DNA from: Bacillota bacterium
GTDB taxonomy: Bacteria > Bacillota > Clostridia > Oscillospirales > CAG-272
Direction: 5' to 3'
Assembly: GCA_029219205.1 (NCBI GenBank)
Contig: JAQXSY010000113.1
Location: 1-41,944 of the forward strand
DNA: 41,944 bases
Below the pieces are notes generated by a model. The model did no database searches, was not told where the DNA came from, and saw only the letters and a program-made list of their open reading frames with translations. The stretch's first letter is position 1. Each line of letters starts with the position of its first letter. Made by a program: the position numbers and the translations under genes. Positions 5,766 to 8,953 of this stretch are shown here, piece by piece.

Positions 5766-5807
5766 AAAATTGAATAATTTATATAATAAGGAAAGGTAAA
5801 CGGCGGC

Positions 5808-6443
5808 ATGAGGTTTGAAAGAACGAACGTATATAATTTTGAAGGCGCGCTGCGCGGAATGAGAAATCCGCTCGATTCATGGGACAAGAGCGACAGCGGC
5901 ATAAACGCCGCCGGAGAGTACGAGATTGGTCCTGCCGACCTTGCTTTGGCGCAGAGGCTCATAAGCGGAGGGACGGAGCACCGGAAATTCATGCGTCAGA
6001 TTTTTGTAACGGTTGACATAACCGCGCCGATATACTGGTGGAGCGAATACGACACCTACAAGGTCGGAACAACGGCGAACTCGCGCTCAACGATGCATAC
6101 GCTCTCGAAATATCCGATAACCGAAGAGATGTTCGAGCGCGACCCCGACAGCGAGTACGGCGCATACTGGGACGCGGTCATACCGATGCTGGAGGAGCTT
6201 CGCCTAAAGTACCGCGAGACCGGGGACTACAAATACTTCCGGCTGCTCAAGCAGAGGCTTCCGTCGTCGTTTTTGCAGATGCGGACGTGTACGATGAACT
6301 ACGAAAACGTGCGGTCGATAGTCGGACAGCGCAGAAACCACCGGCTGATCGAATGGTCGCGTGATTTCATAAAATGGGCGGAAGGACTTCCGTATTCAAA
6401 GGAACTGATTTTCTTCGAAAAGGGCAGGGAAAACGAATCGTAA
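5808..6443 (+). CDS. ThyX-like protein of unknown function
   Basis: A 211-aa soluble protein. The middle (residues about 60-100: DITAPIYWWSEYDTY, then GTTANSRSTMHTL) and the C-terminal third (RLPSSF, then NYENVRSIVGQRRNHR) align in order with segments of the flavin-dependent thymidylate synthase ThyX: substrate loop, LP motif, N-x-R-S-like helix and R-x-x-H-like helix. The signature RHRxxSxxxxSxR is not present; a WSEYDxYKVGTTANS segment stands in its place. Thymidylate synthase activity is therefore not claimed; a ThyX-fold relative is an inference. Such proteins occur in Firmicutes and phages as conserved hypotheticals. AAGGAAAGG precedes the ATG. The stop TAA shares its last base with the polA ATG, so the two are translationally coupled. 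Confidence 0.7.
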   Translation: MRFERTNVYNFEGALRGMRNPLDSWDKSDSGINAAGEYEIGPADLALAQRLISGGTEHRKFMRQIFVTVDITAPIYWWSEYDTYKVGTTANSRSTMHTLSKYPITEEMFERDPDSEYGAYWDAVIPMLEELRLKYRETGDYKYFRLLKQRLPSSFLQMRTCTMNYENVRSIVGQRRNHRLIEWSRDFIKWAEGLPYSKELIFFEKGRENES

Positions 6444-8953
6444 TGAAAACACTCGTTATCGTTGACGGCAACAGCATACTGAACCGCGCGTTTTACGGCG
6501 TTCGTCCGCTTACGGCGAGCGACGGACTTTTCACGCACGCTGTCTACGGCATGATGAACATACTGCTTCGTCACATGGAGAATGAAAAGCCGGACTACGC
6601 GGCGGTTGCATTTGACATGCGCGCGCCGACCTTCCGTCACAAGCTTTACGACGGATATAAGTCGTCGCGAAAGGGAATGCCGGAGGAGCTTGCACAGCAG
6701 CTCCCGTACGCAAAGGAATGCTGCGCGGCGCTCGGCTTTTGTCTGCTTGAAAAAGAGGGCTACGAGGCCGACGACATTATCGGAACCTGCGCCGCAAAGG
6801 CGGAGCTTGGCGGCGCTGCGGCGAAGATACTGACCGGAGACCGCGATTCGCTTCAGCTTATAACAAAAACGACAACCGTTCTGCTCGCGTCAACCGGAGA
6901 GACGGCGGAAAACGGGATTGAGGAGTTCAAAGACAAATACGGAATAACGCCAGACCGGTTTGTGGACGTAAAGGCGCTTATGGGGGATTCGTCGGACGAC
7001 ATACCCGGAGTTAAGGGTATCGGAGAGAAAACGGCGCTGAAGCTGATAAGCGATTACGGGAGCATAGAGAAGCTGTATGAGGAGCTTCCCGGCGCGGAGC
7101 TTACAAAATCGGTGCGCGAAAAGCTTGAAGCCGGGCGAGATATGGCGTTTTTGTCAAAGCGTCTGGCAAAGATAGACACAAACGTGCCGCTCGGCATAAC
7201 GCTTGAAGATCTGAAGTACCGCGGAATCGACAAATGCGAGATGCTGCGTCTCTGCACGCGGCTTGAGCTGAACGGACTGATAAAGCGGCTTTCGCTCGAC
7301 TCTGCCGCCGGCGGCGGGGATCCGGAAAAAAACGGAGCGCCGGAGTACAGGGCGGTTGGCGAAAGCGAAATGAAGAGCATGACGTCGCGCGGAAGGTGGG
7401 CGGTGTCGCTTGGTGAAACGCTGAGGGCTGCCGGAGACGGAGTATTTGTTGAGTGCGGGGCAAAGGATCCGTGGGACGCGCTTGCGCTCGACAGTCCGGA
7501 CGCGGAGTTTATAATGAATGACGTGAAGTCGTTTTTAAGAAGCACGGACCGCGCTCCGAAGGCGGCGCTGAAAGACATTACGCTTGCCGCGTACGTTACG
7601 GACGCCTCCGCAAATTCGTACGACCTGCAAAGGCTGTGTACGGCGTATCTTGCAAGGCCGGCGTCGGGCGACGACGCGCGGGACATGGCGGAGCTGTACC
7701 CGGCGCTTGAGGAAAAGCTGAAAGAAAGCGGACAGGCGGAGCTTTACGGAAAAATCGAGCTTCCCCTGACGGCAGTGCTTGCGGACATGGAGAAAAAAGG
7801 CTTCATGATTGACCGCGCGGGACTTGAAAGCTTCGGAGAGACGCTGGCGGCGCGCGAAAGCGAGTGCGCAATGGCGGTATACGAGGCCGCGGGAGGCGCG
7901 TTCAACCTGAATTCGCCGAAACAGCTTGCCGAGGTGCTGTACGACCGCCTGGGTCTGCCCGGAGGCAGAAAAACAAAAACCGGAAGATCAACCGACGCGG
8001 AAACGCTTGAGGGACTGCGTCCTTTTCATCCGATAATCGACCTTCTGCTTGAGTACCGGAGAGTAACAAAGCTGCGCGCGACCTACGCCGACGGACTGCT
8101 GCGCGTCGCGGACGAAAACGGGAAGGTTCACACCTCCTTTAAGCAGACGGTCACGGCGACGGGAAGGCTTTCGTCTGTCGAGCCGAATCTGCAGAATATA
8201 CCGGTCAGAACCGAGCTCGGGCGGGAGCTGCGCCGGTTTTTCATACCCGAAAGCGGCGAAAGGGTGCTTATCGACGCGGACTATTCGCAGATTGAGCTGC
8301 GTTTGCTGGCGGCGGTATCGGGAGACGAGAAAATGATAAGCGCATTTTGCGAAGGAGCGGACATACACACGGAAACGGCGGCGTCGGTGTTCGGAGTGCC
8401 GCGCGGCGAGGTTACTCCGGAGATGAGAAAGCGCGCAAAGGCGGTAAACTTCGGAATAATGTACGGAATCGGAGATTATTCGCTGTCGCGCGATCTCGGA
8501 ATAACGCGCAGGCAGGCGGCGGATTATATAGAAAGCTACATGAGCCGTTTTCCTGCGGTGCGGGCGTATCTGGACAAAGAGATTGAGTCCGCAGAGCGCG
8601 ACGGCTTTGTTACGACGATGTTCGGAAGGCGGCGCTATATACCGGAGCTTGTTTCGCAGAAGAAGAATATGCAGGCGTTCGGCAGGCGTGTCGCGATGAA
8701 CAGTCCAATACAGGGCGCGGCAGCGGACATAATCAAGCTGGCAATGATAAACACTGCGCGCGCGCTGCGTGAAAACGGGCTTGACGCCGCGCTGATACTG
8801 CAGGTGCACGACGAGCTGATTGTTGAATCCGCAAAAGAATGCGCCGAAAGGGCGGCGGAGATACTGAAAAGCGAAATGGAGAACGCCGTTAAGCTTGCGG
8901 TTCCGCTGACGGTTGAGACGGGCATCGGAAAAACGTGGTACGACGCCCACTGA
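6443..8953 (+). CDS. polA: DNA polymerase I
   Basis: An 836-aa enzyme for Okazaki-fragment maturation and repair synthesis. Residues 1 to about 290 form the 5'-3' nuclease (VDGNSILNRAFYG, GDRDSLQL, DSSDDIPGVKGIGEKTA). Residues about 300-430 replace the 3'-5' exonuclease; the DxE and later acidic positions of a proofreading site are not recognisable, so this domain looks inactive, as in many Gram-positive PolA. The polymerase domain has motif A near 611-620 (DADYSQIELR), motif B (RAKAVNFGIMYG) and motif C at 787-791 (QVHDE). Start 6443 overlaps the stop of the preceding gene; the longer upstream frame would lie inside that gene. Confidence 0.97.
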   Translation: MKTLVIVDGNSILNRAFYGVRPLTASDGLFTHAVYGMMNILLRHMENEKPDYAAVAFDMRAPTFRHKLYDGYKSSRKGMPEELAQQLPYAKECCAALGFCLLEKEGYEADDIIGTCAAKAELGGAAAKILTGDRDSLQLITKTTTVLLASTGETAENGIEEFKDKYGITPDRFVDVKALMGDSSDDIPGVKGIGEKTALKLISDYGSIEKLYEELPGAELTKSVREKLEAGRDMAFLSKRLAKIDTNVPLGITLEDLKYRGIDKCEMLRLCTRLELNGLIKRLSLDSAAGGGDPEKNGAPEYRAVGESEMKSMTSRGRWAVSLGETLRAAGDGVFVECGAKDPWDALALDSPDAEFIMNDVKSFLRSTDRAPKAALKDITLAAYVTDASANSYDLQRLCTAYLARPASGDDARDMAELYPALEEKLKESGQAELYGKIELPLTAVLADMEKKGFMIDRAGLESFGETLAARESECAMAVYEAAGGAFNLNSPKQLAEVLYDRLGLPGGRKTKTGRSTDAETLEGLRPFHPIIDLLLEYRRVTKLRATYADGLLRVADENGKVHTSFKQTVTATGRLSSVEPNLQNIPVRTELGRELRRFFIPESGERVLIDADYSQIELRLLAAVSGDEKMISAFCEGADIHTETAASVFGVPRGEVTPEMRKRAKAVNFGIMYGIGDYSLSRDLGITRRQAADYIESYMSRFPAVRAYLDKEIESAERDGFVTTMFGRRRYIPELVSQKKNMQAFGRRVAMNSPIQGAAADIIKLAMINTARALRENGLDAALILQVHDELIVESAKECAERAAEILKSEMENAVKLAVPLTVETGIGKTWYDAH

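Follow-up and report, generated by a model that had tools for sequence, protein, structure and literature searches.

What does the 211-residue reading frame at positions 5808 to 6443 encode, and could it answer how its host makes dTMP? Profile searches of the genome (G000; 95.6% complete, 2.3 Mb, 191 contigs) that holds the window, i.e., the whole stretch of 41,944 nucleotides analysed here, gave no ThyX, ThyA, TK, or PF00186 DHFR. The frame starts with ATG and stops with TAA, and the final base of that stop is the A of the polA start codon (6443 to 6445); both the frame and this one-base overlap, which a preliminary description had pointed out, are borne out by the sequence. The polA frame that opens at 6443 encodes an 836-residue, full-length DNA polymerase I (5'-3' exonuclease domains and DNA_pol_A, E = 3.9e-153), and the 5' neighbours in the window encode a PTS EIIC protein and a double-ACT-domain protein; the setting therefore looks chromosomal. 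A conserved linkage to polA was not supported: with the window PolA as query, none of 200 further loci showed polA (a family match was present in 191; flanks of up to 8 kb, often shorter), and the partnership was rejected as a functional clue. A separate search with the same query found polA beside the family gene only at the window's own loci (L081 and L104) and at 0 of 80 others. On the computed basis of a predicted fold, conserved positions, gene absences in G000, a replacement pattern among genomes, and DHFR operons, we consider it likely that the gene specifies a third type of thymidylate synthase, folded like ThyX and with its active site rewritten.

Table 1. Positions of the family gene, its neighbouring signals, and the residues discussed in the text (window coordinates unless a locus is named)
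Feature	Position	Strand	Remark
ThyX-fold family gene (PHROG 6721)	5808-6443	+	211 aa; proposed third-type thymidylate synthase
Putative ribosome-binding site GGAAAGG	5790-5796	+	11 bases 5' of the ATG; identified by eye
polA	6443-8953	+	One-base overlap with the family gene; outside the proposed mechanism
H58 codon	5979-5981	+	At the place of ThyX His-53; AP proline 16 residues on in either protein; 84/87 rows
E80-T98 block EYDTYKVGTTANSRSTMHT	6045-6101	+	Stands in for the ThyX signature; preferred register aligns TYK with RHR
L151-P152	6258-6263	+	At the conserved LP of ThyX; P152 in 87/87 rows
R175-H178	6330-6341	+	R175 at T. maritima ThyX Arg-174; both residues in 87/87 rows
RYH/RYR branch loci	L269:5842-6426; L334; L335; L087:4878-5540; L086:4800-5432		

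An AlphaFold2 model computed from an alignment of 87 sequences (pLDDT 95, pTM 0.87) is predicted to take the ThyX fold (PF02511, EC 2.1.1.148) over the whole chain. The first 47 of 50 entries ranked by VIA-align 2 are ThyX or its paralogue PolB (Z = 12.2 to 14.8; 2.5 to 3.5 Å over 166 to 189 residues), and the next unrelated row has a Z of 4.1; Thermotoga maritima ThyX (8req_D) matches the model at 2.6 Å over 183 residues. All 50 rows shown by Foldseek are ThyX (best E = 3.3e-10, TM 0.71), and among the 22 viral models matched at E ≤ 0.001, every one of the 14 that carry a functional name is a thymidylate synthase. This model superseded one from 41 sequences (pLDDT 82, with residues 83 to 96 below 50), which gave the same ThyX ranking at high rmsd. 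The proposal that the segments of the protein follow the order of ThyX is thus borne out by the structure matches, and the comparison with ThyX suggested at the outset returned a ThyX-like predicted fold.

The direct sequence link to ThyX is weak. For the window protein, searches of Pfam, including Thy1 (PF02511) at its curated cut-off, and of NCBIfam gave no match, and a single-sequence search of the PDB yielded nothing of use. When 41 members were compared with Pfam, Thy1 matched more of them than any other family, i.e., five (best E = 0.1), with better single E-values elsewhere (e.g., DUF4476, 0.0037, two members); the same members gave scattered weak matches and no thymidylate synthase in NCBIfam. 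A Thy1 search of the genomes recovered six members at the positions of the family genes themselves, all of one genus (g22), at 19.5 to 23.2 bits against a cut-off of 24.8 (E = 5.7e-5 to 7.9e-4). The divergent member P0004 matches Thy1 co-linearly (residues 34 to 177 on 36 to 179; E = 0.0074, 16.5 bits); P0001 and P0003, which are likewise of the RYH type described below or otherwise divergent, match an unrelated Pfam family (0.036) and no Pfam family, respectively. A first profile compared with the PDB yielded six unrelated chance matches, which were discarded, and a broader profile yielded only two, both to H. pylori ThyX (E = 0.2 and 0.3). The hhalign probabilities against ThyX alignments were not significant (0.4 to 5.4%). 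In a null test against a ThyX model, 12 of 51 members outscored every one of 2091 shuffled or reversed controls, and the RYH-type members P0001, P0004, and L335 had no good match.

The positions of several conserved residues follow those of ThyX step by step. In T. maritima ThyX (native numbering), His53 and Pro69 are 16 residues apart, and Pro151, Asn163, and Arg174 follow each other at 12 and 11 residues; in the family, H58 and P74 are again separated by 16, and P152, N164, and R175 by 12 and 11, with four residues fewer between these two blocks. The Arg-174 equivalent, R175, is thus kept in 87/87 rows at the same spacing from LP and TxN. The nucleotide site is different. The signature RHRx7-8S is missing from the consensus of the 87 members and from the translation, where its absence had been noted in the form RHRxxSxxxxSxR, and a conserved TYK...SxSxMH block takes the place of the ThyX RHR/S/R site. 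The stretch singled out in the preliminary description, WSEYDTYKVGTTANSRSTMH, is present and strongly conserved: Y84, S92, S94, M96, and H97 occur in 87/87 diverse rows, as do P152, R175, and H178, and D82, T83, and K85 occur in 86, 84, and 84 rows, respectively. Judged from the alignment, the replacing block is a different and equally conserved site. The dUMP contacts of the T. maritima enzyme are Arg-78, Arg-80, Ser-88, and Arg-90 (PMC3498832); at these places the preferred register puts T83, K85, T93/S94, and T95, so that the contacts are not kept. The window copy itself departs from the usual residue at T98 (K in 84 rows), F144 (W in 85 rows), and K148.

That T83-Y84-K85 would stand at the place of Arg-78/His-79/Arg-80 is the most likely alignment, and we prefer this gap-free register because of a bridging phage sequence (RQWDRYH), the co-linear Thy1 match of P0004, and helix 75-84 of the model. 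In contrast, hmmsearch, hhalign, and the null-test fragments put MHK on RHR, which is the competing placement. The bridging sequence comes from a C. difficile phage member, which reads RQWDRYH...SSQSKMHR where ThyX has RQWFRHR...ELSGRYSK. A divergent RYH/RYR branch with an SSQSxMHR block is found in C. difficile and Fusobacterium phages and in a second copy in genome G189; G015 and G165 carry copies of similar type (RYH or RYR), which are the only candidate synthases of these two genomes. Bridging searches of viral contigs led from the C. difficile phage member to 19 loci and from the Fusobacterium phage member to 1, mostly near copies.

The fold and the spacing place the family in the ThyX superfamily, and its active-site residues set it apart from standard ThyX. 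An ordinary ThyX whose motif has drifted, with the same cofactor, effective substrate contacts, and no new mechanism, is the alternative that survives best; it overlaps with the synthase of rewritten active site that we favour, the difference being one of degree, and it would account for the whole-chain fold match, the identical H58-P74 and P152-N164-R175 spacing, and a DHFR frequency that resembles that of ThyX genomes (see below). We nevertheless regard it as rather unlikely, since the replacing block is both different and near-invariant (84 to 87 of 87 rows), which argues for a new conserved site and not for drift, and since neither Pfam Thy1 nor PHROG 85 reaches the family.

Instead of being drawn into an unrelated family by the profile searches, the window protein matched PHROG 6721 (E = 1.4e-53, residues 4 to 202 on 11 to 216 of 218). 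Divergent phage members match the same entry at E = 2e-38 to 2e-105, and a canonical Clostridial ThyX is assigned to PHROG 85, not to PHROG 6721. Family relatives are encoded by 131 stretches of bacterial contigs, the best 80 of which are 49 to 57% identical to the window protein and come mostly from Clostridia MAGs, and by at least 532 stretches of viral contigs, of which the best 80 were analysed; this recurrence is far beyond chance. All 15 annotated genes under the 20 matches in phage records are called hypothetical protein, as are all 13 family matches in plasmid records. Divergent members of 25 to 28% identity, again labelled hypothetical (H64 to H66), are encoded on large plasmids of Cetobacterium somerae and Ilyobacter polytropus. 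Among the open-access papers that our searches listed, judged by title and opening of the abstract, we found none describing the PHROG 6721 family or a third thymidylate synthase.

The distribution of the family was compared with those of ThyA and ThyX, both counted generously at the Pfam cut-off, in a class sample of 195 genomes for which a completeness of at least 95% was requested. ThyA is present in 89, ThyX above cut-off in 87, both in 7, and neither in 26. Strong family matches occur in 20 genomes, i.e., in 17 of the 26 that lack a synthase versus 3 of the 169 that have one (Fisher p = 2.6e-15); these figures exclude three weak matches, namely that of G067, which has ThyX and in which the match is a fragment, and those of G015 and G165, intact divergent members in genomes without ThyA/ThyX, and become 19/26 versus 4/169 when all three are counted. 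A hand count by genus gave 10/16 versus 3/115 (p = 7e-9), with two of the 16 genera also containing genomes that have a canonical synthase. A second sample consisted of 39 relatives, no two of the same genus and some of lower completeness; ThyX was found in 18, ThyA in 9, and the family in 12; it is present in 11 of 13 genomes without ThyA/ThyX versus 1 of 26 others (p = 5e-7), the very weak match of G214 (E = 8.7e-4) being excluded. The two samples overlap in G000, G027, and G095, and all of these p-values are too small because the sampled genomes are related. The family fills the place of ThyA or ThyX in these genomes.

TK is present in only 1 of the 17 family-only genomes, compared with 36 of 81 ThyA-only and 26 of 78 ThyX-only genomes. 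Sixteen of the 17 therefore lack ThyA, ThyX, and TK, so that either they have no known route to dTMP or the family is the missing enzyme. According to section 6 of one review, the few species without thymidylate synthase among 711 in the COG database all carry tdk (PMC5954106). Seven class genomes have neither a synthase nor the family (G004, G035, G081, G135, G010, G124, and G134), and TK is found in G124 only; the argument from the lack of TK is weakened by the other six. These six near-complete genomes may belong to auxotrophs or contain a further synthase; four of them (G004, G035, G081, and G135) form one genus (g14) with genomes of 0.8 to 0.9 Mb. Two of the relatives (G213 and G219) also lack ThyA, ThyX, and the family. 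When more divergent members were sought with A4 in 13 synthase-less genomes (E ≤ 1), only the G015 and G165 copies were found. As a separate observation, L322 (G084:C52:33225-34427) and L323 (G193:C9:888-2150) each hold one frame, of 467 to 483 residues, with two tandem ThyX-like stretches.

Neighbouring genes were counted at the 176 family loci (72 viral) that remained from 187 after identical proteins were dropped; L265, L267, and L275 to L278, in which the gene caller missed the family gene, are absent from these counts and from the FastTree tree. DHFR lies directly 3' of the family gene on the same strand at 12 of the 176 loci and two genes downstream at one further locus; among the 13 loci where DHFR falls within six genes, 7 show a four-base overlap, and Pfam confirmed DHFR in all three neighbours tested. 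In the FastTree tree, such pairs fall in the bacterial clade (L069, L070, and G189) and outside it (eight contig loci, G038, and G154), and the pairing therefore arose at least twice on that tree. PF00186 DHFR is present in 79/81 ThyA-only, 17/78 ThyX-only, and 5/17 family-only genomes, and the family enzyme therefore seems not to need DHFR. Within six genes of the viral family genes (n = 72), guanylate kinase occurs at 14 loci, NrdD at 15, and DNA ligase at 16, and the commonest neighbours are a GIY-YIG protein (27) and an AAA protein (26), each neighbour cluster having been named by Pfam from one representative. The commonest neighbours at bacterial loci, i.e., an ABC ATPase (23), a short-chain dehydrogenase (22), and TatD (19), say nothing about nucleotides. 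Near the family member of Enterocloster phage PMBT24, a large gene (L085:1-2418) is annotated as RNA-dependent RNA polymerase, which is odd for a tailed DNA phage. The suggestion that the gene is linked to dNTP supply is supported by the DHFR operons and by the way in which the family takes the place of a missing thymidylate synthase.

The preliminary description had further supposed a ThyX relative with a changed reaction; the ThyX fold without the motif stands, and we do not favour a changed net reaction, because the genomic pattern points to the ordinary conversion of dUMP to dTMP through a changed active site. A ThyX-fold enzyme with another nucleotide reaction, such as pyrimidine hydroxymethylation or methylation for modified phage DNA or a PolB-like UMP/CMP methylation, retained by bacteria for a related purpose, would fit the replaced dUMP-site residues, the many viral members, and the known ThyX paralogues with other substrates (PMC5954106); we consider it improbable, as it leaves unexplained both the concentration of the family in genomes without ThyA and ThyX and the DHFR pairs. 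Least credible is that the protein is no thymidylate synthase and its carriers are thymidine or thymine auxotrophs with an unrecognised kinase, the pattern being due to ancestry and phage load: the six class genomes without ThyA, ThyX, TK, and the family indicate that such a lifestyle may be possible, and genome relatedness inflates the statistics, but the pattern is seen in 10 class-sample genera and in the 39 single-genus relatives, and DHFR pairing is found in two branches.

The family appears to have passed from phages to bacteria. In a maximum-likelihood tree of the 87 rows, viral and bacterial rows are mixed, with eight label changes, at least four of which are forced by well-supported branches, and the window protein groups with the viral rows L174 and L196 with good support and on a long branch. 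In the FastTree tree, which covers more genomes, it again lies among viral rows, nearest to L184 and L183, whereas copies from the same GTDB family (G197, G202, G211, G216, and G217) lie in the bacterial clade. In G121, which has ThyA as well, the closest neighbour of the family copy in this tree is a viral row. As the window protein stands among viral rows in both trees, the gene was likely acquired from a phage; since polA is absent from the 200 other loci, the polA neighbourhood is probably no more than the site where it landed.

The gene is probably the dTMP source of the window bacterium, of some of its relatives, and of many phages. In the mechanism that we propose for a synthase with a rewritten site, the pocket known from ThyX would accommodate dUMP and, very likely, a reduced flavin, and the enzyme would transfer a one-carbon unit from methylene-tetrahydrofolate to C5 of dUMP, yielding dTMP. 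R175 would act in place of ThyX Arg-174, and K85, S92/S94, and H97, perhaps together with R59, K60, R63, or R159, would replace Arg-78/Arg-80/Ser-88/Arg-90. The folate would leave as tetrahydrofolate in the manner of ThyX and not as dihydrofolate in the manner of ThyA, which is expected because 12 of the 17 family-only genomes lack PF00186 DHFR. Phages would keep the gene for their own dTMP supply and would have passed it on to bacteria, and in the window genome it would have ended up before polA. Several points count against this explanation, among them the loss of the dUMP-binding arginines, the weak sequence homology to ThyX, the occurrence of the family together with a canonical synthase in three class genomes (G027, G121, and G184), and the long branch and atypical residues of the window copy. 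On balance, and with less assurance than for the enzyme type itself, we favour the broader view of an unnamed third class of synthase with its own nucleotide site, and perhaps its own cofactor site, spread by phages and sustaining Clostridia that apparently have no synthase or TK. If true, this would close a gap in the DNA-precursor pathway of the carrier bacteria, correct metabolic models and predictions of antifolate sensitivity, provide a natural experiment on the limits of rewriting the ThyX active site, and give a function to a phage family of wide occurrence.

Among known systems, PHROG 6721 is the same family as the window protein, catalogued for phages without a function; we propose here to extend it to bacterial chromosomes and to assign it a role. 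PolB, the UMP/dUMP methylase of Streptomyces cacaoi (4p5a and 4p5b), shares the ThyX fold and matches the model with Z-scores of 13.2 and 12.6, and is described as a ThyX paralogue for nucleoside antibiotics (PMC5954106); the window family differs from it in tracking the absence of ThyA/ThyX. ThyX (PF02511, Thy1; PHROG 85) resembles the family in the predicted whole-chain fold and in the His-16-Pro and Pro-12-Asn-11-Arg spacing; genomes with either mostly lack DHFR, and both have been taken over by phages. Unlike ThyX, the family lacks RHRx7-8S, has other residues in place of the T. maritima dUMP contacts, and scores under the Thy1 cut-off. The thyA gene often sits directly before the DHFR gene, and several ThyA and DHFR matches of the class sample also lie side by side. 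ThyA (PF00303) would share with the family its net product, dTMP, and, as far as 12 of the 176 family loci are concerned, the position of its gene directly before DHFR; however, its fold is unrelated, the window protein has no PF00303 match, and PF00186 DHFR is missing from 2 of 81 ThyA-only genomes versus 12 of 17 family-only genomes.
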